Of a stretch of 64,000 nucleotides of DNA, positions 48,248-63,474 are shown one piece after another (the stretch's first letter is position 1; each line of letters starts with the position of its first letter). This stretch comes from Corallococcus coralloides DSM 2259. Lineage in GTDB: Bacteria; Myxococcota; Myxococcia; Myxococcales; Myxococcaceae. Location of the stretch: contig NC_017030.1 in NCBI RefSeq assembly GCF_000255295.1, positions 5,270,001 through 5,334,000 of the forward strand. Direction: 5' to 3'. A model generated the notes under the pieces. The model was not told the DNA's origin and searched no databases. It saw nothing but the letters and a program-made list of their open reading frames with translations. Made by a program: the position numbers and the translations under genes.

Positions 48248-51192
48248 GCCGGAGAGGACTCCGCGATGAAGCGCGTCAGGCGCGCCACGGTGGGCGCGCG
48301 GAAGAGGGCCTTCACCTTGAGGGGCGTGGCGACATGCGGACGCAACCGCGCGATGACCTGCGCCGCCATCAACGAGTCGCCTCCCAGCGCGAAGAAGTTG
48401 TCGTGGAGCCCGACCCGGGCCAGCCCCAGGACCTCCGCGAACGCGGTGGCGACCCGGCGCACGACTTCGTCCTCTGGCAGCTCCGGCACATCCATCGGTT
48501 CAGGTTCGGGCGGTGGTGACACTGCCGTCACGGTCGTGGAGGTGGCGGGGGCGTCGACGAGGTAGCGCTGACGTTCGAATGGATACGTGGGCAGAGGTAC
48601 CCGGCGACGGGAGAGGCCCCCATGAAGTCCCTGCCAGGAGATCGCGACGCCCGCGCACCACAGGCGTCCCGCGGCGGTGAGCGCGCTGACCGCATCGGAC
48701 GTGTTGTCCGCGGGATGGGGCAGGGTGGCCACCGTGAGATGCGGCCCTGCTCCCGGGTTCTGGCGCGCCAGCGTCGCCAGGGTTCGTCCGGGCCCGACCT
48801 CCAGGAACACGCCCGGCGGACCGGCGAACAACATGTTCAGCGCGTCGCCAAAGCGCACGGTGTGGCGCAGGTGCGCGGCCCAGTACGCCGGGTCCACGGC
48901 CTCTTCCGCCGTGACCGCCACGCCGGTGCGATCGGAGATCCACGGGAGCTGCGGCGGACGCCGTTCGACGCGCTGAACGCAGGCGGTGAACGCGGCCAGT
49001 GACGGCTCGACGAGCGGCGAATGCCCCGCGCCCGGAATGCGCAGCAGCTTCGACTCCACCCCGCGCTCCATCAGTCGCGCCTGGAGCGCTTCGATCTCCG
49101 CCGCGGGGCCAGACACCGCGCACTGCGCGGGCCCGTTCACGGCCGCCAGCGCGAGTCCTCCGTGAAGCAGGGGGGCCAGCTCCGACTCGGGCAACGGCAC
49201 GGCCAGCATGGCCCCCGAGGGAAGACTCGCGAGGATGCGCGAGCGCTCCAGGACCAACCGCAGCGCGTCCTCCAAACGGAAGACCCCAGCCACCGTGGCC
49301 GCGGCATAGGCCCCCAGGCTGTGGCCCACGACCGCGGCGGGCTGCACGCCCCAGCGCTTCCACAGCCGCGCCACCGCGTACTCGGTGACGAACACGGAGA
49401 GCTGGCCGGTGATGAACTCACCCATCCGGGCAGTGGCCAGTTCCAGCGCGGCGGCATCCGTGGGATCCGGATGGAGCACCGACCCCAGGTCGAACCCGAG
49501 GAGCGGCGCCAGGTGCGCACGGCACGCGTCCACGGCCTCGCGGAACGCTGGCTGTGAACCGTACAGCTCCCGGCCCATGCCCACGTGCTGCCCACCGTGA
49601 CCGGGGAACATGAACACCACCTGGCGTTCACCGGCCATCTGTGGCGCGAAGCCTTCCTGTTCCAGAACCTCTTGGGTGTCCTGGCCTACCGCGAACGCTC
49701 GGTGCTTGTGCGCGGTACGTCCCGTCTGGAGCGTCCAGGCGACGTCACCCAGGTCCACCTCCGGATGCGCGCGCAGGTGCCCACCGAGCCGCTCCACGGC
49801 ACGGGCCAGCGCGGCGGGGCCGTGGGCCGACAGGACCATCAACTGCGGAGTGCGCGAACGCTCGGAGGCGGGCAGGGTGGGCGCCTCTTCCAGCACGACG
49901 TGCGCGTTGGTGCCGCCAATGCCCAGCGAGCTGACGCCGGCTCGCCGAGGATGACCGCCGGTGTCCCAGTCCCGCAGCTCCGTGTTCACGCGGAAGGGGC
50001 CGTGCTCGAAGTCGATCTCCGGGTTGGGCCGTTCGAAGTTCAGACTCGGTGGCAGCTTCCGGTGCTCCAGCGCGAGGACCGTCTTGATGAAGCCCGCCAC
50101 GCCTGCCGCCGCGTCCGTGTGGCCGATGTTCGTCTTCACCGAACCCAGCCAGCAGGAGCGGGGCTCGCGGGCACCGAAGGCCTTCGTCAGCGCGGCGACC
50201 TCGATGGGATCTCCCAGCCGAGTTCCGGTGCCGTGCGCTTCCAGGTAACTGATGCTCGCGGGGTCCACGCCCGCGGCATGCAGGGCGGTCTCGATGACGC
50301 GGGACTGGCCCTCCACGCTCGGCGCGGTGAAGCCGATCTTCCCAGCGGCGTCGTTGTTGACGGCCGTGCCTCGGAGGACGGCGCGGATGGTGTCCCCATC
50401 CTCCAGCGCATCCGCGAGCCGCTTGAGCACGACCATCCCCGCACCGTTGCTGCCCACCGTGCCCTGTGCCCGAGCGTCGAACGCTCGGCAGCGGCCGTCC
50501 GGGGACAGCGGCCCGCCCTCGCTGTAGTGGCCGAACCGGGGAGGCACATGCACCGACGCGCCTCCCGCCAGCGCGATGTCACAGTCCCCCGCGAGCAGTG
50601 CCTGCGCGGCCAGATGGATCGCGACCAGGGACGTGGAGCACGCGGTCTGTACGGTGACGGCCGGCCCGCGAAGCCCCAGCTTGTAGGCCACGCGGCTGGT
50701 GAGAAAGTCCACGCCCGTGGCCAGCCGGATCTGCCAGTCACTGGCACCCGCCAGCAGGTCCCTCCGGGCCCGCAGCGCGGACAGATAGTCCGTCTCACTG
50801 CCACCCGCGTAGATGCCAATGGCGCCCCGGTACCGAGCCGGATCATACCCGGCGTCCTCCAGCGCCTCCCGCGCGCACTCGAGGAACACCCGGTGCTGCG
50901 GATCCAGCATCAGCGCTTCCTGCGGCGACATCCCGAAGGCCTGCGCGTCGAACCGGTCCGCATCCGTGATCAGACCGAACGCCGGCACCGCCTCGCCCAC
51001 GGCGCGCTCGGTGGGTGGTTCGGCACGGGGCTGGCCGTCCGGACCGAAGTAGGTGATGGACTCGACGCCGCTGGCCAGGTTGGACCAGAACTCCGCCGCG
51101 TTGGCCGCACCGGGGAGCCGGCACGCCAGGCCCACGACCGCGAGGTGGGCCGAGCGGTCCTCTTCCTCCATCACGTCGAGCGACGCGCTCAT
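48244..51192 (-). CDS. Polyketide synthase KS-AT-ACP
   Basis: The protein is 982 aa. The KS (about 14-440) has Cys185 in TACSTSL, His320 in EAHGTGT and His358 in NIGH. The AT (about 525-830) has Ser625 but is atypical: GHGGQ instead of GQGxQ, GHSLGAY instead of GHSxGEY, and GAGH (721-724) at the HAFH/YASH position, so the extender cannot be assigned. The ACP (905-975) has LGGDSL with Ser940. No reductive domain or thioesterase is present. It follows the NRPS by an ATGA overlap and should extend its dipeptidyl product by one ketide unit. Confidence 0.95.
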   Translation of the reverse strand: MSASLDVMEEEDRSAHLAVVGLACRLPGAANAAEFWSNLASGVESITYFGPDGQPRAEPPTERAVGEAVPAFGLITDADRFDAQAFGMSPQEALMLDPQHRVFLECAREALEDAGYDPARYRGAIGIYAGGSETDYLSALRARRDLLAGASDWQIRLATGVDFLTSRVAYKLGLRGPAVTVQTACSTSLVAIHLAAQALLAGDCDIALAGGASVHVPPRFGHYSEGGPLSPDGRCRAFDARAQGTVGSNGAGMVVLKRLADALEDGDTIRAVLRGTAVNNDAAGKIGFTAPSVEGQSRVIETALHAAGVDPASISYLEAHGTGTRLGDPIEVAALTKAFGAREPRSCWLGSVKTNIGHTDAAAGVAGFIKTVLALEHRKLPPSLNFERPNPEIDFEHGPFRVNTELRDWDTGGHPRRAGVSSLGIGGTNAHVVLEEAPTLPASERSRTPQLMVLSAHGPAALARAVERLGGHLRAHPEVDLGDVAWTLQTGRTAHKHRAFAVGQDTQEVLEQEGFAPQMAGERQVVFMFPGHGGQHVGMGRELYGSQPAFREAVDACRAHLAPLLGFDLGSVLHPDPTDAAALELATARMGEFITGQLSVFVTEYAVARLWKRWGVQPAAVVGHSLGAYAAATVAGVFRLEDALRLVLERSRILASLPSGAMLAVPLPESELAPLLHGGLALAAVNGPAQCAVSGPAAEIEALQARLMERGVESKLLRIPGAGHSPLVEPSLAAFTACVQRVERRPPQLPWISDRTGVAVTAEEAVDPAYWAAHLRHTVRFGDALNMLFAGPPGVFLEVGPGRTLATLARQNPGAGPHLTVATLPHPADNTSDAVSALTAAGRLWCAGVAISWQGLHGGLSRRRVPLPTYPFERQRYLVDAPATSTTVTAVSPPPEPEPMDVPELPEDEVVRRVATAFAEVLGLARVGLHDNFFALGGDSLMAAQVIARLRPHVATPLKVKALFRAPTVARLTRFIAESSPA

Positions 51193-54100
51193 TCCACTTC
51201 CTCCCGCGAGCGGTCCGACGACAGCCGGCCCTGACGGCCCAACAGGCGCGCACGGCCACTGCGCCGTTGCTCCTGGCGCTGCGCCTGCGCGGCCTCGGCC
51301 TCTCCACCATCGTCCCGGCCCTGGAGATGACTGGCGAGCACGCGGACGGTGGGGAACTCGAACAGCGTCACCATGGGCACGTCATGGCCCATGCGGTGCT
51401 TCAGGAGGTACTGCACCTGCGCCAGCAGCAGCGAGTGCCCCCCGAGGTCGAAGAAGTTGTCCTCCGCGCCCACGTGCTCCAGGCGCAGCGTCTCGCACCA
51501 GATGCCGGCAATCCGCCGTTCGTGCTCGTTCGCGAGCGGGACCCGAGGCGCCTGGGTTCCGGGCGTGGGTTCGGGCAGCGCCCGTTCATCCACCTTGCCA
51601 CCGTGGGTGAGCGGCAGCGCCTTCAGCTCCACATACGCGGAGGGGATCATGTACGCCGGCAGCTCACGCGACAGGTGCTCACGCAGCCGCGCCGGTGTGG
51701 GCAGGGGCTGACCCGCGAGAGGCACCAGGTAGCCGACCAGCTGGGGCGCGCCACCGGGAGGACTCCACGCGCGGACGTGCGCCGCCGCGAGTCCCGGATG
51801 CGTGCGCAGGCGGACAGCGACCTCCGCGGGCTCCACGCGGAAGCCCCGGATCTTGAGCTGCGCGTCCATGCGGCCCAGGAACTCGAGCGTCCCGTCCGCC
51901 CGACACAGGACCCGGTCGCCCGTACGGTACATGCGCGCGCCTGGATGGGCCGCGTACGGGTCGGGGACGAAGCTCGCGGCGGTGAGGTCCGGGCGGTTCA
52001 GATAGCCGCGCGCCACACCGGCACCGCCGATGTAAAGCTCTCCCGCGACGCCCGAGGGGACAGGTTGCAGCTCCGCGTCCAGGACATGGGCCGTGGTCCC
52101 GTCGATGGGCTGGCCGATGGCGGGCAGTGTCTCGATGGGCCCCGCGGGCAGCACCTCGCCGGAGGTGGCCGTCACGGTGGTCTCGGTGGGGCCGTACTGA
52201 TTGAACAGCCGCCACGGCAACCCGGGCACGGGCCGCGCGTGGAGCCGGTCACCGCCCGCGAGCACCGTGCGCAGCTCGCACGACGCCGGCCATGGCAGGG
52301 CCAGCAGTCGTTCCGCCAGCGCGGTGGGCAGGTCCGTGAAGGTGATGCGCTCGGAGAGGAGCCATGACTGGAGCCGCTCCGGGGACAGGCGCACGTCCTG
52401 TCCGGGGACATGCAACGTCGCGCCCGCGGTGAGGGCAGGCCAGAGCTCCGCGACAGACGGATCGAACGCGGGCGAGTAGAGCAGCGTGGTGCGGCTGTTC
52501 GGCTCCAGTCCAAACGCGCGCCGGTGCCACCCGACGAGGTGGGCCAGTGCGCCGTGCTCCACCACCACGCCCTTGGGGACGCCCGTGGAGCCCGAGGTGT
52601 ACATGACGTAGGCCCGCTGTTCGGGCCGCACCTCCGTGGGCAGGCGGCCCTGGGGCGTGCCGGGGCCATGGAAGGGCTCGATGCGCACGCGCTCCACCGT
52701 GGAGGGAAGTCGTTCGGCGAGCGGCCCTGTGGTGACCACCTGGCGTACGCCAGCGTCACCGAGGATGAGCGCGATCCGTTCGGCCGGATGCTCCGGGTCC
52801 AAGGGCAGGAACGCGGCTCCGGACAGCATCACGCCCAGCTCGGCCGTCACGAACTCCGCGCCACGAGGCGCGCAGACACCGACGACCGACTCCGCGTCTG
52901 CACCGCGCGAGTGCAGATGTTCGGCGAGCAGCGTCGCGCGCCGGACCAGTTCCGCGTAAGTGAGGGTGCCTGCCTCGTAGCGCACGGCCACCGCGTCAGG
53001 GGTCCGCAGGGCCTGCGCCAGGACCTGCTGATGCACGGGTGGCTCCGCGCTGACGGGCATCGCGGATCCGTTCGCCACGAGGACCCGCCGCTCCGCATCC
53101 GAAAGCATCGGCAGGCGCGACACGGGTGTGCCAGGACTGGCCACCGCGGCCTCCATCAGGCGCAGGAAGTGCGCGGCCATCCGCTCCATCGTCGAGCGGT
53201 CGAACAGGTCCCGGTTGTACTCCCAGATGAGCGAGATGCGCGCGTCACCACGCTCGCGGTCGCCCAGGTGCCGGCCCGCGTGCGGAATCGCGACGACATC
53301 CAGGTCCACCTTCGACGACCCGTTGCCGCGCTCGAAGATGGTGCACGAGGCATCCCCCAGCCGAGGGCTCCGCACGGCCGAGTCATGGAAGCTGAACATG
53401 GCCTGCACGAGCGGATTGCGGCTGGGGTCTCGCTTCACGCCCAGGGCTTCGATCAGCTTGAGGAACGGATACGTCTGATGCTCGGCCGCCGCCACGGTGA
53501 GGTCCCGCACCTGATGGACCAGCTCGCGGAACGACGGCGCGCCGGAGACGTCACACCGGAGGACCACTGCGTTGACGAACATCCCGATGACATTCTCGAT
53601 GTTCCGGACACCGGCCCGGGCCGCGAACGCCGAACCGATGCACAGGTCCTGCTCGCCGGTGTAGCGATGCAGCAGCGTGGCGAAGGCGGCGAAGAGGGTG
53701 TTGAAGAGGGTCACGCCCTCCTGCTGACAGAACGCGCGCAGGGCGCCGGGCAGGGCGGGCGGCAGCTCCAACCGGAGCAGGTCGCCGTTGAAGGTCTGCA
53801 CACGCGGGCGCGGATGGTCGGTGCGCAGCGGCAGCACCTCTGGAGCACCGGCCAGCCGCTTCCGCCAGAAGTCGAGCTGGGCCTTCATGGCCGGACCGTC
53901 GAGCGCCTCGCGCTGCCACGCCGCGAAGTCGCGGTACTGCACCGGGAGCTCCGGCAGCGGCGAGGACTCACCGCGCAGATACGCGTTGTAGAGCGCGTCC
54001 AGCTCCCGCATCAGCACGGAGAACGACACGCCGTCGTGGACGACGTGGTGCTCCACGAGGACCAGTTCGTGATCGTCCGGAGCCAGGCGGACGACGGTCC

Positions 54101-56258
54101 AGCGCACGAGCGGCGGTTCGAAGAGCGACAGGGGCCGCCGCAGCTCCTGGCGGAGCGCCTCTTCACGCCGGTGTTCACGCTCGACCGGGGGCAAATCGGA
54201 CAGGTCGATCAACGGGACCTGCACCGGTGTCACGGGAAGGACGCGCTGCCACGGCCGGCCGTCGACTTCCTCGTAGGTCGTCCGCAGCAGTTCATGGCGG
54301 CGGGTGATCTCCGTCAGCGCGCGTTCGAGCACCGCCAGGTCCAGCCCGCCCAGCACGCGAAGGGTCGTCTGCGCCTGGTAGGAGATGCTGCCGGGGGACA
54401 GCTTCTGGAGGAACCAGACCTGCTCCTGTTGCACGGACAGCGGTGCCCGTTCGGGGTCGGCGACGCGGACCACGGGCGGCAACGCGTCCTTCGCGGGAAC
54501 GGACCGACGCGGCTCCAGCACGTTCGCCAGCTGGGAGATGCGACGGTGCGCGAAGAGCTCCGTCAGAGACAACGGGAGCCCCAGCACCTCCGCGACCCGA
54601 GCGGCGATCCGCGTGGCCAGCAGCGAGTGGCCGCCCAGTTCGAAGAAGTCGTCCTCGATGCCGATCCGCTCCAGGCGCAGCTCCTCCTGCCACACCTGGA
54701 CGAGTCCATGCTCCAGCTCCGTGCGAGGCGCGACATAGGCGCTGCTCCGGGTCGCGTGGGCATCGGGCATGGGCAGCGCCTGGACGTCGACCTTGCCGGT
54801 GGGGCCCAGGGGCAGGGCGTCCACGACGACAAAGGTCCGGGGGAGCATGGCCTCGGGGAGCCAGGCGCGGAGGTGCTCGCGGAGCTGCTCCGTCCCGGGA
54901 ACGGCGCGTGCGTCCTTCGGCGCGAACCACGCCACGAAGAAGACGTCGTGGCTCTCGGTGCTGCGAGCCAGGACGTGCGCGGCCCCGACGTGCGGATGGG
55001 TCAGCAGCGCGGCGGTGATCTCCGCGGGCTCGATGCGGATGCCGCGGACCTTCACCTGCCGGTCAGAACGGCCATGGAACTCCAGCGAGCCATCCGGCAA
55101 CCGGCGGCCCAGGTCTCCCGTGCGGTACAGCCGTTCGCCGCCGAACCGGGAGAAGGGATCCGGAATGAATCGATCCGCGGTCAGGTCCGGCGTGCCCACG
55201 TAACCGCGAGCCAATCCGGGGCCGCCAATGAACAGCTCCCCGGTCTCGCCCTCCGCCACGGGCCGCAGCTCCGGACCGAGGACGTGCACCTCCACGCCGC
55301 CAATGGGACGGCCGATGGACGGCAGCCGGTCCCCGGTCGAGGCATCACCAGGAGGGACGACCCCGGACGTGCTGTAGATGGTGCACTCGGCGGGGCCGTA
55401 GCCGTTCACGAGCTGGAACGGCAGCCCGGGCCTGGGGTGCAGGTGCAGCCGGTCACCGCCGGTGAGGATCAGGCGCAGGGCACAGGACTCAGGCCAGGAC
55501 AGCGGGAGGACGCGTTCGGCCAGCGGCGTGGGCAGGAAGACGCAGGTGATGTCCCGGGCCAGGAGCCAGTCCTGCAGCCGCTGGGGCGACAGGCGGGTCT
55601 CCTCATCAGGCGGCAGCTCCAGTCGAGCCCCCGCGGCCAGCGACGGCAGGAGCGTCATGACGAAGGCATCGAAGCCGGGCGAGGCCACCACGCCAATGCG
55701 ATCCGCGGGCGACAGGCCGAACGTGCCGAGGTGGTACCCGGTGAAGGCGGACAGGGCCCGGTGGCTGATCATCACGCCCTTGGGCAGCCCGGTGGAGCCC
55801 GAGGTGTGGATCACATACGCGAGGTGATCCGGCTGCACGGTGACGCCCGGGTTCACGTCCGGGAACGCCTGAAGCGCCAGGGCCTCTGGAGCCAGGACCT
55901 GGATGCCGTCCGCCGCGAGCCGCTCCATGGCAGGCCCCGTGCCGATGACAAACCGGGCCCCCGCCGAAGCAGCCATGTATCGCAGGCGTTCGGGAGGGGA
56001 GGCCGGGTCCAGGGGAAGCCAGGCCGCTCCGGCCTTGAGAACACCCAGGACGGATGAGACCAGCTCCACGCTTCGCGGAAGACAGACGCCGACGAGGACG
56101 TCCGGGCCGGCGCCCCGAGCGATCAGCGCATGGGCCAACCGGTTCGCATGCACATTCAGCGCGGCGTGGGTGAGAGAGCGGGCTCGGGAGGCAACGGCGA
56201 TCTGGGAGGAAAGTTCGGTCGCTCGTCGCTCGACGAGCTGGTGGACGGGGGGCAGCAA
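51189..56258 (-). CDS. Non-ribosomal peptide synthetase A-PCP-C-A-PCP
   Basis: The protein is 1689 aa from a TTG at 56258 with GGAGG 4 nt upstream. It starts directly with an adenylation domain, so it is an initiating synthetase. A1 (about 15-500) has TSGSTGLPKG and NGYGPAE, with pocket residues D-A-M-F-L-G-G-I-Y. The PCP has LGGHSLLATR. The C domain (about 605-1050) has HHVVHDG near residue 738. A2 (about 1075-1555) has TSGSTGVPKG and NQYGPTE, with pocket residues D-P-A-D-L-G-Q-V-T. The final PCP has LGGHSLLLAQ. I do not recognise either code. It hands over to the PKS encoded next. Confidence 0.95.
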   Translation of the reverse strand: MLPPVHQLVERRATELSSQIAVASRARSLTHAALNVHANRLAHALIARGAGPDVLVGVCLPRSVELVSSVLGVLKAGAAWLPLDPASPPERLRYMAASAGARFVIGTGPAMERLAADGIQVLAPEALALQAFPDVNPGVTVQPDHLAYVIHTSGSTGLPKGVMISHRALSAFTGYHLGTFGLSPADRIGVVASPGFDAFVMTLLPSLAAGARLELPPDEETRLSPQRLQDWLLARDITCVFLPTPLAERVLPLSWPESCALRLILTGGDRLHLHPRPGLPFQLVNGYGPAECTIYSTSGVVPPGDASTGDRLPSIGRPIGGVEVHVLGPELRPVAEGETGELFIGGPGLARGYVGTPDLTADRFIPDPFSRFGGERLYRTGDLGRRLPDGSLEFHGRSDRQVKVRGIRIEPAEITAALLTHPHVGAAHVLARSTESHDVFFVAWFAPKDARAVPGTEQLREHLRAWLPEAMLPRTFVVVDALPLGPTGKVDVQALPMPDAHATRSSAYVAPRTELEHGLVQVWQEELRLERIGIEDDFFELGGHSLLATRIAARVAEVLGLPLSLTELFAHRRISQLANVLEPRRSVPAKDALPPVVRVADPERAPLSVQQEQVWFLQKLSPGSISYQAQTTLRVLGGLDLAVLERALTEITRRHELLRTTYEEVDGRPWQRVLPVTPVQVPLIDLSDLPPVEREHRREEALRQELRRPLSLFEPPLVRWTVVRLAPDDHELVLVEHHVVHDGVSFSVLMRELDALYNAYLRGESSPLPELPVQYRDFAAWQREALDGPAMKAQLDFWRKRLAGAPEVLPLRTDHPRPRVQTFNGDLLRLELPPALPGALRAFCQQEGVTLFNTLFAAFATLLHRYTGEQDLCIGSAFAARAGVRNIENVIGMFVNAVVLRCDVSGAPSFRELVHQVRDLTVAAAEHQTYPFLKLIEALGVKRDPSRNPLVQAMFSFHDSAVRSPRLGDASCTIFERGNGSSKVDLDVVAIPHAGRHLGDRERGDARISLIWEYNRDLFDRSTMERMAAHFLRLMEAAVASPGTPVSRLPMLSDAERRVLVANGSAMPVSAEPPVHQQVLAQALRTPDAVAVRYEAGTLTYAELVRRATLLAEHLHSRGADAESVVGVCAPRGAEFVTAELGVMLSGAAFLPLDPEHPAERIALILGDAGVRQVVTTGPLAERLPSTVERVRIEPFHGPGTPQGRLPTEVRPEQRAYVMYTSGSTGVPKGVVVEHGALAHLVGWHRRAFGLEPNSRTTLLYSPAFDPSVAELWPALTAGATLHVPGQDVRLSPERLQSWLLSERITFTDLPTALAERLLALPWPASCELRTVLAGGDRLHARPVPGLPWRLFNQYGPTETTVTATSGEVLPAGPIETLPAIGQPIDGTTAHVLDAELQPVPSGVAGELYIGGAGVARGYLNRPDLTAASFVPDPYAAHPGARMYRTGDRVLCRADGTLEFLGRMDAQLKIRGFRVEPAEVAVRLRTHPGLAAAHVRAWSPPGGAPQLVGYLVPLAGQPLPTPARLREHLSRELPAYMIPSAYVELKALPLTHGGKVDERALPEPTPGTQAPRVPLANEHERRIAGIWCETLRLEHVGAEDNFFDLGGHSLLLAQVQYLLKHRMGHDVPMVTLFEFPTVRVLASHLQGRDDGGEAEAAQAQRQEQRRSGRARLLGRQGRLSSDRSREEVE

Positions 56259-56582: not shown

Positions 56583-59003
56583 ATGGATCAAAAGAGTCGA
56601 AGCGGGCTGGCGGTACTGGCCCTGGGCTTGATGCTGGCGCTGACCGGGTGTGGCAGTCCGTCCATGGTGGTGGCGGAAGGCAGCGCGCAGGCAGTGGTAA
56701 CGCTGCCGCAAGCCTTGAGTGCCAGCGACATCGCCCGTGTGGAGCTCACGGTGTCCGGCGCGGGCATGACGACGCGCACGGATGCACTGGTGAAGACGGG
56801 CGGGCAGTGGGGTGGGGTGCTGGGCCAGCTGCCTGCGGGCACCGGCCGTCTCTTCAGCGCCCAGGCCTTCGACGCCTCCAACACCGTGCGCTACTCGGGG
56901 CAAGTGACGCCGCCCGTCACCATCCAGGCCGGGCAGACGACGGCGGTCACCCTGCTGCTCCAGGAGGTGAACGCGCCGCCCCCCTTCAGCAATGCGGCTC
57001 CGCGCATCCTCTCCCTGGTTGCGAGCCCTGGCACTGTCGCCCCGGGCGGGCAGGTAACGCTCCAGGCCACCGCGGACGACCCGAACGCGGGCGACACCCT
57101 CACGTATGCGTGGACGGCAGCCTCCGGCAGCTTCAGCGCCGCATCCAGCCTCACCACGTCATGGACGGCACCGGCCTCCGCGGGCCAGGTCGCGCTGACG
57201 CTGACGGTGACGGACTCCAGGGGCGCCAGCGCCTCTCTCAGCGTCACCATCACGGTGAGCACCGGCAATGGCAGCGCGGCCGTCAATGTCTCCTTCAACA
57301 CCTGGCCCCAGGTGGCTGGAATGACAGCCCTGCCTTCCTCCGTCTCTGTCGGCCAGACCACCCAGGTGACGGCCTCCGCCAGCGACGCGGACGGCGACAG
57401 CCTCAGCTACGAGTGGACGGCCAGCTGCGCGGGGACGTGGGCCAATGCCACATCCGCCAGTCCCAGCTTCACCCCCTCCGCACGACCCTCCAGCGGCACG
57501 TGCACGCTCAGCGTGACGGCGCGTGACGGGCGCGGTGGGATGGGCATGGGCAACCTCACCATCCACGTCCCGTCCTCGCCCACCACCGGGCAGTTCCCAC
57601 CGGAGATCGTGGAGACGTTCCACTCGATCGCCACCGTGCCTGCGCAGGGTGACACCGTCGTCTTCCGCGCGAGGGCGCGAGATCCGCAAGGCAGCGCGCT
57701 CTCCTTTGCCTGGTCCGCGAACGCGGCCGGGCTGGGCACGGCCAGCGACGGTGCGACGACCAGCGAGGTGCTCTGGACGGCGGGCGCCTGCCTTTCTTCG
57801 GGCACGTCCCTCACGGTGACGGTGACCGTCCGTAACGCGCTGGGGTTGTCCGCCAGCGCCTCCATGATTTTGGAGGGCGGCACGCCATGCGCTCCCTCGC
57901 CGAGGCGAGTGACCTGGATTGCCGCGGGAGGCGCGCACAGCCTGGTCGTGAGGCAGGACGGCACCGCGGACGCGTGGGGCCACAACGGCTACGGGCAGCT
58001 GGGGGACGGAACGAGCGTGGACCGCTTCCTTCCCGGTCCGGTCCAGGTGCAGGGCCTCACGGGGGCCACGGCCCTGTCCGCTACCGCCTACCACACGCTC
58101 GCGCTCGCTCAGGACGGCACCGTGTGGGGCTGGGGGTACAACGACTCCGGCCAGCTGGGAGACACCGTGGACATGGTCCGAGTGACACCGGCTCCGCTGC
58201 CCGGCCTCACGGGCGTCACGGCCCTGGCCTCGGGGACGTACCACTCCCTCGCGCTCAAGCAGGACGGCACCGTGTGGGCCTGGGGCCTCAACAACCTGGG
58301 CCAGCTGGGAGACGGAACGACGGTCAGCCGCACGGAGCAGATGCCCGTGCCGGGCCTCACGGATGTCACGGCCCTGGCCGCGAGCACCTATCACTCGCTC
58401 GCCTTGAAGCAGGACGGCACCGTGTGGACCTGGGGCTACAACAGCTCCGGGCAGCTGGGAGACGGAACCACCGCGAGCCGCCTCACGCCCGCGCAGGTGC
58501 CGGGGCTGACGGGCGTGTCGGCCATCGCGGCGGGGCTCGTCCATTCGCTCGCGCTCAAGCAGGACGGCACCGTGTGGGCCTGGGGTCGCAACACCGACGG
58601 TCAGCTCGGAAATGGGGCGGCCGTGAACAGCCCGGTCCCGGTACAGGTGCAGGGATTGACGGGCGTGTCGGCCATCGCCGCCGGGTCCTATCACTCGCTG
58701 GCGCTGAAGCAGGACGGCACCGCGTGGAGCTGGGGCCGCAACGGCACGGGGCAGCTCGGGAATGAGACCATCACGGGCAGCCTCACGCCGGTGCAGGTGC
58801 AAGGACTGACGGCGGTGACGGCTCTGGCCGGAGGCGACGCGCATTCCATGGCGCTGCTGCGGGACGGCACCGTGTGGACCTGGGGCTACAACGCCGAGGG
58901 CGAGCTGGGCGATGGGACGACGCTCGACCGCACCGCGCCCGTGCGGGTGCAGGGCTTGGTTCTTGAGGCAGGACGGCACCGTCTGGGCCTGGGGATGGAA
59001 TGA
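56583..59003 (+). CDS. RCC1-repeat lipoprotein with Ig/PKD-like domains, C-terminus frameshifted
   Basis: The protein is 806 aa. The signal peptide ends in the lipobox ALTGC (Cys23). A conserved N-terminal domain (residues 30-140) is followed by three Ig/PKD-like beta domains (about 140-450, for example ATADDPNAGDTLTYAWTA). Seven RCC1-type blades follow, each with QDGTxWxWGxNxxGQLGDGT. The blade period is exactly 150 nt: matching sites lie at 58110, 58260, 58410, 58560, 58710 and 58860. The last ten or so residues are out of frame because of a 41-nt deletion. It is a surface or periplasmic protein, probably with binding functions. Its paralogue starts at 63475. Confidence 0.9.
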   Translation: MDQKSRSGLAVLALGLMLALTGCGSPSMVVAEGSAQAVVTLPQALSASDIARVELTVSGAGMTTRTDALVKTGGQWGGVLGQLPAGTGRLFSAQAFDASNTVRYSGQVTPPVTIQAGQTTAVTLLLQEVNAPPPFSNAAPRILSLVASPGTVAPGGQVTLQATADDPNAGDTLTYAWTAASGSFSAASSLTTSWTAPASAGQVALTLTVTDSRGASASLSVTITVSTGNGSAAVNVSFNTWPQVAGMTALPSSVSVGQTTQVTASASDADGDSLSYEWTASCAGTWANATSASPSFTPSARPSSGTCTLSVTARDGRGGMGMGNLTIHVPSSPTTGQFPPEIVETFHSIATVPAQGDTVVFRARARDPQGSALSFAWSANAAGLGTASDGATTSEVLWTAGACLSSGTSLTVTVTVRNALGLSASASMILEGGTPCAPSPRRVTWIAAGGAHSLVVRQDGTADAWGHNGYGQLGDGTSVDRFLPGPVQVQGLTGATALSATAYHTLALAQDGTVWGWGYNDSGQLGDTVDMVRVTPAPLPGLTGVTALASGTYHSLALKQDGTVWAWGLNNLGQLGDGTTVSRTEQMPVPGLTDVTALAASTYHSLALKQDGTVWTWGYNSSGQLGDGTTASRLTPAQVPGLTGVSAIAAGLVHSLALKQDGTVWAWGRNTDGQLGNGAAVNSPVPVQVQGLTGVSAIAAGSYHSLALKQDGTAWSWGRNGTGQLGNETITGSLTPVQVQGLTAVTALAGGDAHSMALLRDGTVWTWGYNAEGELGDGTTLDRTAPVRVQGLVLEAGRHRLGLGME

Positions 59004-59115: not shown

Positions 59116-59152
59116 GCGGGTCCCGTCTTCTTGTCAGGAGCTCGGGACCCGC
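59116..59152 (-). terminator. Hairpin at the convergent end of the peptide operon
   Basis: GCGGGTCCCG (59116-59125) and CGGGACCCGC (59143-59152) form a perfect 10-bp stem with a 17-nt loop. It overlaps the last codons of the S26 gene and the gap to the RCC1 gene. It is a possible bidirectional terminator without a T-run. Confidence 0.4.
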
Positions 59153-59586
59153 ACGACGCCGATGATGGCCTCCGCGTCGATGTAGCCCAGCTGCCGCGAG
59201 TCCTGGGTGTTCTCGGCGTTGTCTCCCGACACCACCACCTTCCCGGATGGAACGCGCGTCCGGGAGTCGGCGCCGAGCTTCGCCCACGCCCAGTCCGGCA
59301 CCGGCTCTCCCGCGACGGCGGCCACCCGCTTGATGAGATAGGGCGAGTCCTCCGAGTTCATCACCGCGAGCCGCTCGGCGGGCAGCAGGAAGACGATGAC
59401 GTCCGAGCGCGCGTAGCCGCCGTCTCCGACACGGCGCCTCGCGAGGAGCTGCTGCCCGTCGCGCAGCGTGGGCGCCATGCTGTTGCCGCGCACCGTGACG
59501 ACGAGCCAGCGGCGGCGCGCCCAGGCCGTGAGCGCGGCGCCCGCCACCAGGAGCCCCGCGCCCACGCCCATCGCCGCGAGCATCAC
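59134..59586 (-). CDS. S26 family signal-peptidase-like protease
   Basis: The protein is 150 aa from a GTG at 59586 that overlaps the ABC gene stop (GTGA). One N-terminal membrane segment (about 3-22) is followed by the serine/lysine dyad: Ser36 in RGNSMAPTL and Lys86 in LIKRVAAVAG. A third S26 box, GDNAENTQDSRQLG, is near the C-terminus. It is short compared with housekeeping LepB. As last gene of the operon it is the likely protease for the precursor peptides, whose leaders end in Ala-Gly-Ala, a type I signal-peptidase-style site. That assignment is inference. Confidence 0.9.
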   Translation of the reverse strand: MMLAAMGVGAGLLVAGAALTAWARRRWLVVTVRGNSMAPTLRDGQQLLARRRVGDGGYARSDVIVFLLPAERLAVMNSEDSPYLIKRVAAVAGEPVPDWAWAKLGADSRTRVPSGKVVVSGDNAENTQDSRQLGYIDAEAIIGVVRVPSS

Positions 59587-61448
59587 GCGACCTCCCGCTG
59601 CGAGGTCCGTGAGGCGACGCGCTCGTCCTGATAGCCGCTGGCCTGGAGCGTGAACAAGCGCGCGTACTCGCCACCCGCCGCCATCAGCGCGTCATGCGTG
59701 CCCTGCTCGATGACGCGGCCTTCGGAGAGGACGTAGAGCGTATCCGCGCTCCGCAGCGCGCTCATCCGGTGGGAGATGAGCAGACGCGCACGCCCCGCGC
59801 CGTGGCGCTCCAGCGTCTGGTGGATGTGGAACTCCGCGGCCGCATCCAGTCCGGAGCTGGGCTCGTCCAACACCAGCAGGTCCACGTCCTGGCGCATCAG
59901 GGCACGGGCCAGCGCCACCCGCTGCCACTGGCCTCCCGAGAGCGACACTCCCGCCGGCGCGTCGTCGTCCTCGCCCGCGAACACGCGGCTCAGCAGCGTG
60001 TCGTAGCCCGCGGGAAGCGAGGCGAGCGTTTCGTCCATCTCCGCCAGCCGCGCCACGTCGCGGATCCGCGCGCCGTCCTTCAGCCGGGCCACGTCCCCCA
60101 GGCCGATGTTCTCCGCCGCGCTGAAGTCGTACGTCATGAAGTCCTGGAACGTCGCCGTCATCCGCGCCCAGAGCGCAGGAGCATCCAGCTCCCGCACGTC
60201 CACGCCGTCCCACAGGATCTGCCCGCGCTCCACGTCATAGAAGCGGCACAGCAGCTTCACCAGCGTGCTCTTTCCGGCGCCGTTGACGCCGACGAGCCCC
60301 ACCGATCCTCCCGCCGGAATGAAGAGGTTCACGCCGCGCAGCACCCAGGGGCCGTGGGCGTCGTAGCGGAACCAGACGTCGCGCAGCTCGATGCCATGTC
60401 GCAGCGGTGCCACCGGGCGCGAGGGCCCCACCGCGCGGACCGGCAGGTTGATGATGTCGAGGTAGTTCTTGAAGGTCTGGATGCTGCGGCTCGCGAATTC
60501 AATCTGCGAGAGCAGCCCGTTGAAGGCGCTCTGGATGCCCGCCACGGCCGCGAGGAAGAGGGCCACGTCTCCAAGCTGGAGCTGCCCCCGGATCGCCCCT
60601 CGCGCGACGATGAAGGCCCCCACCGAGGCCACCACGGCCGTGAGCAGCGACAGCGCCGCCTGCACGCCCAACCCCTTGCGCGTCACGGCCAGCTCCTGGG
60701 TCGACGCCTTGCGCAGCGACGCCACCATCCGCTCCAGGAGCAGGTCCCCCAGGTTGAACAGCCGGCTCTCCTTGGCCGCCCGCACGTCCACCAGCAGCGA
60801 GTGGTAGAAGTCGCGCCAGCGGTACGTGGGCACGAGCGCCTCGGTCAGCTCCACCAGCCACCGGCTGCGCGCGAGCTGCGCCGCCAGCGCCACGCCCCCC
60901 GCCAGCAGCAGCAGCAACGCCATGGGCGGGGACACCATCAGCACCACGGCGCTCAGCGTCCCCACCGACACCAGCGTGCGCACCATGGCGCGCACGAACT
61001 CGGCGAGCTGCTGGGGCGCGTCCAGGGCGGCCTCGTTCGCGAGGCGGAGCCGGCCGTGGAAGGCGGGGTCCTCGAAGTGGCGCAGTCCCTCCAGCGCCAC
61101 CACCTTCGCGAAGAGGGTGCGCTCGACCTCGATGGTGACGCGCCAGCGAATCAGCCCGGCGAGGTACTCGGTGACGTTGAGCACCGCCATGGAGCCCCCG
61201 GCGACGGCGGCGGCGCCCACCGCGAGCGTGAGCGCCCGCTGCGTGTCGGCGAGCGCACCGCGGCTCAGCTCGTCCAGCAACTCCTTGGTGAGCCAGCCGC
61301 CCACGGCCGCCACGGAGCCCGTGCACAGCGTGAGCGCGAACGCGAAGGCCGACGCCAGCGGTGCCGAGCGCCACTGGAGCACCACGGCCGCGCGCACCGT
61401 GCGCAGCACCTCACGCACGAGCCTCCGCGCGTTCCGCGGCCCGGTCAT
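59583..61448 (-). CDS. ABC exporter (fused membrane and ATPase domains, no peptidase domain)
   Basis: The protein is 621 aa. Residues 1-340 hold the transmembrane domain. The ATPase domain has Walker A GVNGAGKST (387-395), Q-loop Gln435, signature LSGGQ (503-507), Walker B LLVLDE (524-529) and His560. It is a half-transporter that should dimerise. There is no N-terminal C39 peptidase domain, unlike double-glycine bacteriocin exporters, which fits processing by the adjacent S26 protein. The ATGA start overlaps the TlpA-like gene. It probably exports the cysteine-rich peptides. Confidence 0.93.
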   Translation of the reverse strand: MTGPRNARRLVREVLRTVRAAVVLQWRSAPLASAFAFALTLCTGSVAAVGGWLTKELLDELSRGALADTQRALTLAVGAAAVAGGSMAVLNVTEYLAGLIRWRVTIEVERTLFAKVVALEGLRHFEDPAFHGRLRLANEAALDAPQQLAEFVRAMVRTLVSVGTLSAVVLMVSPPMALLLLLAGGVALAAQLARSRWLVELTEALVPTYRWRDFYHSLLVDVRAAKESRLFNLGDLLLERMVASLRKASTQELAVTRKGLGVQAALSLLTAVVASVGAFIVARGAIRGQLQLGDVALFLAAVAGIQSAFNGLLSQIEFASRSIQTFKNYLDIINLPVRAVGPSRPVAPLRHGIELRDVWFRYDAHGPWVLRGVNLFIPAGGSVGLVGVNGAGKSTLVKLLCRFYDVERGQILWDGVDVRELDAPALWARMTATFQDFMTYDFSAAENIGLGDVARLKDGARIRDVARLAEMDETLASLPAGYDTLLSRVFAGEDDDAPAGVSLSGGQWQRVALARALMRQDVDLLVLDEPSSGLDAAAEFHIHQTLERHGAGRARLLISHRMSALRSADTLYVLSEGRVIEQGTHDALMAAGGEYARLFTLQASGYQDERVASRTSQREVA

Positions 61449-61966
61449 GGCAGGACTTCGTGCAGGAAGTGTCCCGCGGCGGCGACCACGCCTTTATCGA
61501 CGAGCACGAGGGTAGGGTACCCGGCCTGCTTGATCGCCCGCGTGATGGAGTCCCCATCGCTCAGGTACGCCACCCGGGCCACCTGCTTCAGCGACGCCCC
61601 GAGCGAGACCACGTCCGGGTCCTCGGGCCCGCCCTCGATGAAGGCCAGGAGCGGCATCCCAGGCGGCGAGGCGATGAGCTTCTCGCGCACCGAGGAGCAG
61701 GGCCGACAGCCAGGGGTGAAGAAGCCGATCAGGGTCTGCCCGTCCGCGAGGGCGGCATCCGTGACGGACTCGCCCTCCACCGTGGTCGCCTCGAAGCGGC
61801 CCACCTTGTCACCCTCCAGCGGCAGGGCAGGGTCCCGGGTAGGAACCTGGTTGGCCACCGTCTCCTGGAGTTTGCGCAGCCGGCCGATGAGCGCGAGCGT
61901 CAGCAAGAGGTTGAGCACCACCAGCACGGCGAGGATGGCGCCACCCACGACAAGAATCTCAACCAT
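61445..61966 (-). CDS. Membrane-anchored thioredoxin-fold protein (TlpA/MauD-like)
   Basis: The protein is 173 aa. An N-terminal membrane anchor (about 3-28) precedes a periplasmic thioredoxin-like domain with the redox motif Cys87-Arg-Pro-Cys90 (FFTPGCRPC) and the cis-proline loop GYPTLVL (Pro151). The start has GAGGAAG close upstream. With the adjacent MauE-like protein it matches the MauD/MauE pair, which is needed to make the disulfide-rich small subunit of methylamine dehydrogenase. A role in forming or correcting disulfides of the precursor peptides is inferred. Confidence 0.88.
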   Translation of the reverse strand: MVEILVVGGAILAVLVVLNLLLTLALIGRLRKLQETVANQVPTRDPALPLEGDKVGRFEATTVEGESVTDAALADGQTLIGFFTPGCRPCSSVREKLIASPPGMPLLAFIEGGPEDPDVVSLGASLKQVARVAYLSDGDSITRAIKQAGYPTLVLVDKGVVAAAGHFLHEVLP

Positions 61967-61974
61967 CGTCTTCC

Positions 61975-62529
61975 TCAGTTCCTTCGGGCTCGCGAAGACG
62001 CGGCCACGGGCTCCGGTCCGCGGATCAGGAACACCAGGTCATCCCAACGCGTGACGAAGACTCCGCCCAGCACCCCGGCGGTCCCCGCGATGGCCCCCAT
62101 CGCCACCGGCACGGGCGCGCCAGAGGCCGCCGCGTGGCTCACGGCCCCAACGACAGTGACAGCCAGCAGCAGGCCGTTGCGCACGAGGTGCGCCGCGCCC
62201 ACGGGGGTGTTGCTTGCGCCAAAGCACCGGCAGGCGACCTTCGCGCCCCGGCGCAACACCCATGCAATGCCAAGCGTGAAGCCCCCCAGGAGCGCCAGCG
62301 CCAGCGCATAACCCACAGCCACGTTCAGGAGCAGCAGGAGCGCGGAGGCGGCCTCCGCGAGAATCAAGGTGGCTGCGAGCGGCGCGCCCGCCAGGGAGGG
62401 CGGCAGGCCGAAGTTCACGAGCGTCTGGATGAAGTCTTCGAAGGGCTTGCGTCCGCGCGCCTTGCCAAAGGCGGCGAGCACGAACACCAGGGCCAGCATC
62501 AGGCGACAACCGAGATTGACCGCGCTCAA
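61975..62529 (-). CDS. MauE/DoxX-like redox membrane protein
   Basis: The protein is 184 aa from a TTG at 62529 with GAGG 7 nt upstream. Four hydrophobic segments (about 8-22, 46-68, 70-92, 115-160) and the paired cysteines Cys100-Arg-Cys102-Phe-Gly fit the MauE family, which passes electrons between membrane and periplasmic thiol proteins. It is 8 bp upstream of the TlpA-like gene. Confidence 0.85.
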   Translation of the reverse strand: MSAVNLGCRLMLALVFVLAAFGKARGRKPFEDFIQTLVNFGLPPSLAGAPLAATLILAEAASALLLLLNVAVGYALALALLGGFTLGIAWVLRRGAKVACRCFGASNTPVGAAHLVRNGLLLAVTVVGAVSHAAASGAPVPVAMGAIAGTAGVLGGVFVTRWDDLVFLIRGPEPVAASSRARRN

Positions 62530-62549
62530 CGGAGAGCCTCACTGAGACG

Positions 62550-62582
62550 ACGGCTGGACGCCGAGGTGGCGCGTCCAGCCGT
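62550..62582 (-). terminator. Hairpin between peptide gene 1 and the processing genes
   Basis: ACGGCTGGACGC (62550-62561) and GCGTCCAGCCGT (62571-62582) form a perfect 12-bp stem with a 9-nt loop, 17 nt after the peptide stop. There is no T-run, so it may be a partial terminator or an RNA-stabilising stem rather than a full stop. A copy follows peptide gene 2. Confidence 0.5.
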
Positions 62583-62598
62583 GGTCATCAAGCAGAAG

Positions 62599-62757
62599 TC
62601 ACTTGCAGCCGACCGACGCGACGCAGATGCCGTAACAGTTGTGGACCTTGCGCTTGGTGGTGCAGCACTCTCCGTTGGAGGGCACGCAGGCGCCAGCGGG
62701 AACCTCGGACAGGAACATCTTCAGAAAGCGGTCGCTCAGCGCCTTGAGGATCTTCAT
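62599..62757 (-). CDS. Six-cysteine precursor peptide 1
   Basis: The peptide is 52 aa from the ATG at 62757, with AAAGGA 7 nt upstream (a longer in-frame ATG at 62805 has no such site). The leader starts MKILKALSDRFLKMFLSE. It is amphipathic, with no hydrophobic core long enough for a Sec signal, and ends in Pro-Ala-Gly-Ala. The core follows at Cys24 with spacing C-x6-C-C-x8-C-x3-C-x5-C (residues 24, 31, 32, 41, 45, 51). It is basic and contains GECC and HNCYG. This looks like a disulfide-stabilised, knottin- or defensin-like secreted peptide. No family is recognised, and an antimicrobial or signalling role is only a guess. Confidence 0.85.
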   Translation of the reverse strand: MKILKALSDRFLKMFLSEVPAGACVPSNGECCTTKRKVHNCYGICVASVGCK

Positions 62758-62815
62758 GGTGTGGTCCTTTCGGTATGCGTTGAGAGGGGGGTGAACAACA
62801 TCCACTCAGCGCAAC

Positions 62816-62850
62816 GCGAACGTTACACCTCAAAGGTTATCTGGCGAAAG
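62816..62850 (-). promoter_or_regulatory. Conserved upstream box of peptide gene 1
   Basis: Thirty of 35 bases match the box at 63154-63188. On the plus strand the shared parts are GCGAACGTTACA, CAAAGGTTAT and GGCGAAAG. It lies 59 nt from the start codon, followed toward the gene by a leader stretch of 26 nt (62763-62788) identical to that of peptide gene 2. It is a probable promoter, and the sigma factor is not assigned. Confidence 0.6.
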
Positions 62851-62906
62851 AGTGATTTCGCGGAATCTAAGTATTTAGAGATTAACGCAGCGCACCTTGC
62901 CAGGGA

Positions 62907-62936
62907 CGGCTGGACGCCGTGCGGCACGTCCAGCCG
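62907..62936 (-). terminator. Hairpin downstream of peptide gene 2
   Basis: CGGCTGGACG (62907-62916) and CGTCCAGCCG (62927-62936) form a perfect 10-bp stem with a 10-nt loop, 17 nt after the stop of peptide gene 2. It is a sequence relative of the hairpin at 62550-62582. Confidence 0.5.
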
Positions 62937-62953
62937 GGGTCATGACGCAGGAA

Positions 62954-63109
62954 TCAGCAGACAGGCGACCGGGTGCAGACGCCATAGCAGTTGTGGCTCA
63001 TGCGCCGGGCGTTGCAGCACTCGCCATGGTTGATGACGCACGCACCTGCGGGAACCTCGGACAGGAACAGCTTCAGGAAGCGGTCGCTCATCGCCTTGAG
63101 GATCTTCAC
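62954..63109 (-). CDS. Six-cysteine precursor peptide 2 (GTG start)
   Basis: The peptide is 51 aa from a GTG at 63109, with AAAGGA 6 nt upstream, at the place where peptide gene 1 has ATG. The leader (MKILKAMSDRFLKLFLSE, then VPAGA) differs from peptide 1 at only two positions. The core keeps the identical spacing C-x6-C-C-x8-C-x3-C-x5-C, GECC and HNCYG, while most other core residues have changed. Conserved leader and cysteines with a variable core is the usual pattern of exported peptide families. It ends on the last cysteine. Confidence 0.85.
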   Translation of the reverse strand: MKILKAMSDRFLKLFLSEVPAGACVINHGECCNARRMSHNCYGVCTRSPVC

Positions 63110-63474
63110 GGTGGGTCCTTTCGGTATGCGTTGAGAGGGTTTCTCGACGCGATGCGAACGTTACATTCCAAAGGTTATGCGGCGAAAGCCAGCTTTCATG
63201 GAATAACAGCACTCAATGAATAACGCGCCGCGCCTTTCCCGGGTGCTCCTCGATGAAGGGGAAAGGCTTTCATCGGAGAGCCCGGATTCGTAGCAGGAAA
63301 GATAGAGGCAAGGGATGTCGGGTTGGACCGCCGTGGCGCTGGGGTGACTCAGGCGCGAAGAGTAGAAGCTCCCGCTAGAGTCCTGCGCTCCTCTCCTGAG
63401 TCAGGCACCCGTCCGGCGTGGACGCGGATTGCCGTTCAGGAAGGCTCATCCAGTTGCACACGGGGGAGAAGTCC
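63110..63474. promoter_or_regulatory. Divergent control region between peptide gene 2 and second RCC1 lipoprotein
   Basis: The 365-bp gap contains the 26-nt leader shared with peptide gene 1 (63114-63139) and the conserved box at 63154-63188 driving peptide gene 2 (45 nt from its start). An AT-richer stretch follows to 63230. For the plus-strand lipoprotein it holds the block 63331-63360, which is also found upstream of its paralogue, and a GGGGGAGA ribosome binding site. No further gene is seen. Confidence 0.55.

Follow-up and report, generated by a model that had tools for sequence, protein, structure and literature searches.

A six-gene operon of Corallococcus coralloides that probably matures and exports disulfide-rich peptides, with counterparts in Actinomycetota

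What is made by a bacterium that encodes, side by side, two small cysteine-rich precursors, a MauE-family membrane protein, a thioredoxin-like protein, an ABC exporter and an S26 protease? The question is raised by a locus of Corallococcus coralloides DSM 2259 (assembly GCF_000255295.1, a single contig of 10,080,619 bases) lying within the stretch of 64,000 nucleotides analysed here, which we call the window (NC_017030.1, positions 5,270,001 to 5,334,000 of the forward strand). A preliminary description of this DNA had read the interval 59134–63109 as a self-contained operon that cleaves, oxidises and exports such peptides, and a gene-by-gene check confirmed six genes, all of them on the minus strand. 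In window coordinates, the genes and the regions upstream of the two precursor genes are:

63110–63180 (limits approximate), minus strand: upstream region of PEP1, resembling in alignment that of PEP2
62954–63109, minus strand: PEP1, precursor of 51 amino acids with a GTG start, leader of residues 1–23 ending in A-G-A and a six-cysteine core from Cys24
62758–62842 (limits approximate), minus strand: upstream region of PEP2, resembling in alignment that of PEP1
62599–62757, minus strand: PEP2, paralogous precursor of 52 amino acids with an ATG start and the leader type and cysteine spacing of PEP1
61975–62529, minus strand: MauE-family membrane protein (PF07291) with a TTG start and a C-R-C-F motif
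61445–61966, minus strand: membrane-anchored thioredoxin-like protein (TlpA-type) with a CRPC motif
59583–61448, minus strand: ABC exporter of 621 amino acids with transmembrane and ATPase domains and no C39 peptidase match
59134–59586, minus strand: S26 (signal-peptidase-I-like) protease of 150 amino acids with the conserved Ser and Lys

Both precursors fit the pattern C-x6-CC-x8-C-x3-C-x5-C from Cys24, as had been described, and the GTG start of PEP1 is replaced by ATG in its orthologue at another locus (L016). The genes had also been said to overlap or to lie within 8–70 bp of each other, which is true of the later ones (69 bp between PEP2 and the MauE gene, 8 bp between this and the thioredoxin-like gene, and overlaps of 4 bp at both the thioredoxin-like/ABC and ABC/S26 junctions) but not of PEP1 and PEP2, which are 196 bp apart. 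As the two precursors are 71% identical and their upstream regions are similar, the alignments suggest that a precursor gene was probably duplicated along with the region upstream of it. Scans of the operon gave no Rfam match and no promoter, and a single terminator on the opposite strand, fewer than were found in shuffled sequences.

The assignments of the machine proteins stood with one correction. The MauE protein scored 81.5 bits against PF07291 (cut-off 27) and the protease 72.2 bits against TIGR02227 (cut-off 47), while the exporter exceeded the ABC_tran cut-off, fell just under that of ABC_membrane (26.4 of 28 bits) and showed no C39 domain at E ≤ 1; its 138.9 of 523.85 bits against TIGR01193 mean that, by that model, it is not a C39-type bacteriocin exporter. 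The thioredoxin-like protein is indeed anchored and carries CRPC, its sole Pfam match being AhpC-TSA below threshold (E 0.22), but the label MauD-like is only a resemblance, since the curated MauD model TIGR02661 did not match it at E ≤ 1. The same model gave nothing at E ≤ 1e-10 across 195 genomes, including this one, and no control genome matched it either. In alignments of the family, counted by eye, all 22 thioredoxin-like proteins keep CxxC, all 21 MauE proteins CxCF, and all 22 proteases the Ser and Lys.

The gene set is not peculiar to this strain. Relatives of PEP2 were found in 11 of the 96 genomes of Myxococcaceae (own genome included), and in 10 of these 11 the order precursor, MauE, thioredoxin-like protein, ABC exporter, S26 protease is complete, that is, in the window and at nine other loci. 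A MauE profile (E ≤ 1e-12) matched 10 of 195 Myxococcota genomes, exactly the ten with the operon, and a thioredoxin-like profile (E ≤ 1e-8) matched 11 of 145 genomes of the order, the same ten plus G074. The recurrence of this order in nine further genomes, together with a proportion of synonymous differences (pS) above that of non-synonymous ones (pN) in 7/7 precursor comparisons (pairs that overlap and are not independent), argues that the operon is not a chance arrangement. G074 has lost the precursor and most of MauE, beside a transposase-like open reading frame (ORF; named by eye), and among the remnants the thioredoxin-like protein is short of one residue and the S26 protein is altered at conserved positions. 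Transposase-like ORFs, again recognised by eye, occupy at L042 10908–12465 of this genome the place expected for the missing genes. The eleventh genome, G059, has a precursor (L024 7704–7856, minus strand) with a TTG start, five cysteines, and A-G-D-R in place of the A-G-A-C seen in the other 12 aligned, so that the cleavage-site alanine and the first cysteine are lost; no part of the set was found within 20 kb around it, and profile searches gave no MauE or thioredoxin-like match in the genome. To judge from its sequence, this precursor without an operon is decaying.

The surroundings of the loci were compared by blastn only, over at most about 7 kb on each flank, the upstream flank in the window being 891 bp. 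Common flanking DNA amounted to 3.3 kb downstream between the window and L016, 881 bp between L018 and L019, 650 bp at 69% and in opposite orientation between L020 and L021, and about 200 bp upstream between L022 and both L018 and L019; among the matches listed, no other exceeded 150 bp between different loci. Because so little flanking DNA is common to the loci and the exporter tree mixes genera, the operon seems to move as a unit. No thioredoxin-like, ABC or S26 protein of this set was matched at E ≤ 1e-3 in 20 regions surrounding other Myxococcota MauE genes, 14 of these regions having a MauE match at E ≤ 1e-3 and some ending at contig ends. Three genomes of one family (G147:C57, G148:C249 and G151:C324) have two MauE matches about 4.2 kb apart. 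A precursor scan of a collection of genome contigs returned two loci, both among the myxobacterial ones already found, and says little on other phyla because its patterns were drawn from the myxobacterial leader.

Is the set then confined to myxobacteria? A tblastn search of plasmid records (7.3 billion bases) with PEP2 and the thioredoxin-like protein gave matches in Embleya, Streptomyces and Nonomuraea, and in Embleya sp. NBC_00888 the two matches adjoin; the MauE of the window found nothing in these records at E ≤ 1e-4, and neither phages (searched with PEP2) nor viral contigs (searched with a precursor profile) held precursor relatives. When the fetched regions were searched with the myxobacterial profiles, 11 distinct full sets were recognised (L066, L067, L068, L069, L070, L072, L073, L074, L075, L076 and L077). 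The existing annotation of four fetched records reads MauE/DoxX, hypothetical protein, ABC, S26 family signal peptidase, and the L068 record was already annotated with TlpA, ABC and S26. Two sets are arranged differently, the precursor coming last in L066 and the S26 gene lying on the other strand in L073; a further locus, L064, has precursors, exporter and S26 gene, with the thioredoxin-like gene on the other strand. Two loci with different precursor scaffolds share one replicon in Nonomuraea gerenzanensis (L066 and L073) and in Embleya NBC_00888 (L064 and L074). Altogether, a cysteine-rich precursor is present in 21 of the 21 full sets examined (10 myxobacterial and 11 actinobacterial), so the prediction that the gene set recurs beside small cysteine-rich ORFs held in nine more Myxococcaceae loci and 11 actinobacterial sets, and the four processing genes were never found without such an ORF nearby. 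In the exporter tree a branch with a support of 100/100 sets the myxobacterial rows and L064 apart from the remaining 11 actinobacterial ones; L064 attaches beside the myxobacterial branch, and the precursor cores divide likewise.

What these precursors share is seen in a set of 28 rows, 12 myxobacterial and 16 actinobacterial, which are not independent of each other. It omits the G059 orphan, L071 and L078 as near-copies, a plasmid of S. atratus, and all but one of 16 S. clavuligerus records; the actinobacterial members came by several routes, with start codons of unannotated genes chosen by us and the precursors of L069, L072 and L074 picked by eye from ORF lists. All 28 carry [AV]-x-A, its last alanine at residue 20–26 and before the first cysteine (residue 22–36), in keeping with the expectation of a leader ending in A-x-A that would suit an S26 enzyme. 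Three rows (two from L077, one from L073) came to light only through a search pattern that includes A-x-A, and when they are excluded the count is 25/25; shuffling the leaders of 12 representatives of our choice gave a product of chance values of 7e-10, to be read with the same caveats of selection. Cysteine numbers are even in 28/28. Among the myxobacterial precursors (55 pairs from 11 rows) leader identity is 0.86 against 0.42 for the core, shared cysteines excluded. Across the whole family, core cysteines number 4, 6 or 8, with a spacing that differs between loci. The precursors of L064 and L065 keep the myxobacterial core frame, the remaining actinobacterial cores being quite different. 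At the level of sequence this is the conserved leader and variable core that characterise a ribosomally synthesised and post-translationally modified peptide (RiPP), another mark of which, maturation genes linked to the precursor, is seen in 21 of the 21 full sets. The net charge of the core, 0 to +4, fits an antibacterial role but does not show it, and none of 12 precursors compared with Pfam and NCBIfam was named by a family, the few matches all being below cut-offs.

All these data suggest that the operon is a dedicated, leader-guided, RiPP-like system for an exported, disulfide-containing secreted peptide, which we consider a probable reading. What the sequence establishes is a gene set that recurs in two phyla, precursors with a common leader and an exchangeable core, an invariant A-x-A, even cysteine numbers and intact catalytic motifs; from these we infer each biochemical step (oxidation, cleavage and export), the order of the steps and the activity. 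PEP1 and PEP2 would leave the ribosome with a leader of some 23 residues ahead of a cysteine-rich core, and the conserved leader would direct both to a common machine. The S26 protease would cut after A-x-A, which would make Cys24 the first residue of the product; with three disulfides, the predicted monoisotopic masses of such products are 3105.25 (PEP1) and 3052.33 (PEP2), the reduced forms being heavier by 6.05. The thioredoxin-like protein and MauE would act as a DsbA/DsbB-like pair, joining the cysteines and passing the electrons to the membrane; and the ABC exporter, which has no leader peptidase of its own, would carry the peptide out, where it would most likely serve as a weapon or signal against other cells.

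Several observations weigh against this reading. The thioredoxin-like protein remains under every curated cut-off of Pfam and NCBIfam, and scans against the same libraries recognised no outer-membrane partner, immunity gene or regulator among the six genes. No MauE match was found within the 18 kb of L064, and the myxobacterial-type precursor of L065 (Embleya NBC_00896, 8995–9168) does not adjoin the set, a full set with a different precursor lying about 125 kb away on that plasmid (L072). The exporter tree is unrooted, with midpoint rooting only, and L064 sits on a long branch. The exporter of L021 aligned through an in-frame stop near its N-terminus, which makes its start unsure. Lastly, the AlphaFold models of precursor and core (input of four sequences) are poor, with a mean predicted local distance difference test (pLDDT) of 58.5 and 57.2. 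The knottin- or defensin-like fold initially proposed for the peptide is not sustained by these models, and other members have 4 or 8 cysteines in other patterns; membership of either family is likewise not supported, as no single cysteine framework (4, 6 or 8 cysteines, differently spaced) runs across the members. A search of PDB sequences with the peptide gave chance p53 matches only.

On which side of the membrane would the peptide be matured? In the usual geometry, the ABC protein would recognise the leader and export an uncut, reduced precursor, and cleavage by S26 and oxidation by MauE and the thioredoxin-like protein would follow on the outer face, where NisT/NisP or Bdb proteins act on other peptides. 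A-x-A is the rule of signal peptidase I, which S26 enzymes follow, and the S26 protein here exceeds the signal peptidase I cut-off, as this geometry would have it. The charges around the membrane segments point elsewhere. Since positive loops lie on the cytoplasmic side under the positive-inside rule, we compared the loops of MauE, with limits that we set ourselves: in 21 family members the mean net charges are +1.5 for loop 1, +0.2 for loop 2, +4.6 for the loop with CxC and -0.5 for loop 4, against -1.9, +1.2, -1.4 and -0.1 in 21 other Myxococcota MauE proteins, which look different in this respect, and the CxC side has a lysine plus arginine (K+R) bias of 5 to 11 in the family and of -3 to 5 in the others. 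The thioredoxin-like proteins, whose membrane segment lies almost at the start, have no K/R before the anchor and 2–5 after it in 22/22; of 13 redoxin matches in the C. coralloides genome, the N-terminus of six was judged hydrophobic by eye, with K or R preceding it in five. Read by the same rule, these charges suggest that the CxC loop of MauE and the thioredoxin domain would face the cytoplasm, a prediction that runs counter to the usual geometry and had no place in the preliminary description.

The protease is less informative. The myxobacterial S26 proteins have no K/R before the segment and 2–4 after it (10/10), but the housekeeping signal peptidase I L079 of the C. coralloides genome likewise has none before and five after (the other, L080, has 2 and 2), so the S26 pattern alone decides little. 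S26 topology in Actinomycetota is not uniform: L072 and L074 may have two positively charged residues ahead of the hydrophobic segment, L069 one, and L064 one or two, all depending on the start codon, which would suit the usual geometry, whereas such a segment is absent from the N-terminus of the Streptomyces S26 proteins of L075 and L077 (best 17-residue mean 0.44 and 0.97) and borderline in those of L067 and L068 (1.55 and 1.58), which would not. For these counts the S26 start of L064 was mis-set in the script, and the annotated S26 start of L070 seems too short when compared with L078. On balance, that oxidation takes place on the cytoplasmic face before export is to us an evenly poised proposition, with cleavage there held less firmly, and maturation on the outer face, though a real possibility, lies on the doubtful side. 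From the MauE loops, the thioredoxin anchors, and the absent or borderline S26 segments we tentatively propose, at somewhat less than even confidence, an inverted counterpart of DsbA/DsbB, in which oxidation and, at least in some lineages, the S26 cut would take place inside and the folded peptide would be exported.

A different possibility is that the peptide binds metal or buffers copper, with MauE as a DoxX-like helper in the manner of Hvf or bufferin systems. A cysteine-rich peptide does adjoin a MauE/DoxX-type protein here, and MauE gave a weak HvfX match (E 0.017); this match reaches 15.3 of 80 bits and no MNIO-type enzyme was recognised among the six genes by the Pfam and NCBIfam scans, and both results speak against a copper-binding RiPP of the bufferin/Hvf type. 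Furthermore, the leader has charged residues all along it, unlike a Sec signal (judged by eye, no predictor being used), the cysteines are even in number in 28/28 precursors and differently spaced between loci, and the set includes a dedicated CxxC protein and an exporter, all of which makes metal binding improbable. A reading in which the neighbouring genes do not act on the small ORFs, and the set matures another envelope protein, is more improbable still. S26, MauE and thioredoxin-like proteins do have general roles elsewhere, but none of the 21 full sets examined lacks the precursor, operon-type MauE was found at E ≤ 1e-12 in no genome without one, the precursors show pS > pN in 7/7 comparisons, and the orphan precursor has decayed at its cleavage site.

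How, then, does the proposed disulfide-peptide system compare with known ones? As in the mau cluster, a PF07291 membrane protein lies next to a thioredoxin-like protein with an N-terminal anchor, which MauD also has; the six genes include no methylamine dehydrogenase gene, however, the curated MauD model is unmatched, and the CxC loop is strongly positive, unlike that of the 21 other MauE proteins of the phylum. NisT/NisP achieve lantibiotic export with a separate leader protease and sublancin is a disulfide-containing glycocin, so that leader and core, ABC exporter, dedicated protease and thiol-disulfide proteins find parallels there, but no ring-forming or sugar-transferring enzyme is present among the six genes, S26 replaces the subtilisin or C39 protease, and MauE and the anchored thioredoxin are added. 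SodX (TIGR02754), the maturation protease of nickel superoxide dismutase, is likewise of S26 type and removes residues from the N-terminus of its own substrate, which is SodN according to PMC3919588; four S26 proteins scanned against TIGR02754 gave weak matches of 30–40 bits (cut-off 63.25) and all exceeded the signal peptidase I cut-off of 47.

The closest account is that of decRiPPter (Kloosterman et al. 2020, PMC7794033), which describes three candidate RiPP families of Streptomyces with mauE, one of them also with mauD, proposes that these genes modify RiPP precursors containing at least eight cysteines each, and applies a strict filter requiring a transporter, a peptidase and a regulator. 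These families resemble the present one in having mauE, and once mauD, beside a predicted cysteine-rich precursor, and differ in their eight or more cysteines and their restriction to Streptomyces; the main text does not contain the term S26, and the section on them includes neither an analysis of leader or cleavage motif nor an experimental test. They probably overlap the actinobacterial members found here. The statement that no such system had been described is therefore to be narrowed: mauE/mauD candidate families existed, and it is the full anatomy, along with any experiment on it, that was not found in the open-licence literature, where, among the matches listed, no account of MauE peptide clusters beyond PMC7794033 appeared. 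New here are the presence of the complete machine in a second phylum, a cleavage motif that does not vary, and charge patterns which suggest that the redox domains face the cytoplasm.

As for the neighbourhood, the operon is flanked by two genes on the plus strand, 56583–59003 and 63418 onward, whose first parts are 81% identical in DNA over 526 bases. The former has PKD-like domains and RCC1 repeats, and the latter is truncated by the end of the window, its visible part being without Pfam match; the L016 locus lacks the copy of the flanking gene downstream of the operon. Further downstream, past the RCC1 gene, lies a non-ribosomal peptide synthetase gene (51189–56258, minus strand) that encodes two AMP-binding domains, one condensation domain and two carrier domains.

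Finally, the locus provides a rule for genome mining (MauE with CxCF, an anchored CxxC protein, an ABC exporter, an S26 protease and a leader ending in A-x-A) by which disulfide-rich peptides of this class can be sought among myxobacteria and Actinomycetota. Cores of 4, 6 and 8 cysteines are apparently all served by one kind of machine, so this machine could be developed into a means of producing constrained peptides in bacteria. Should the topology reading be true, the operon would be a natural example of disulfide formation at the cytoplasmic face of the membrane.

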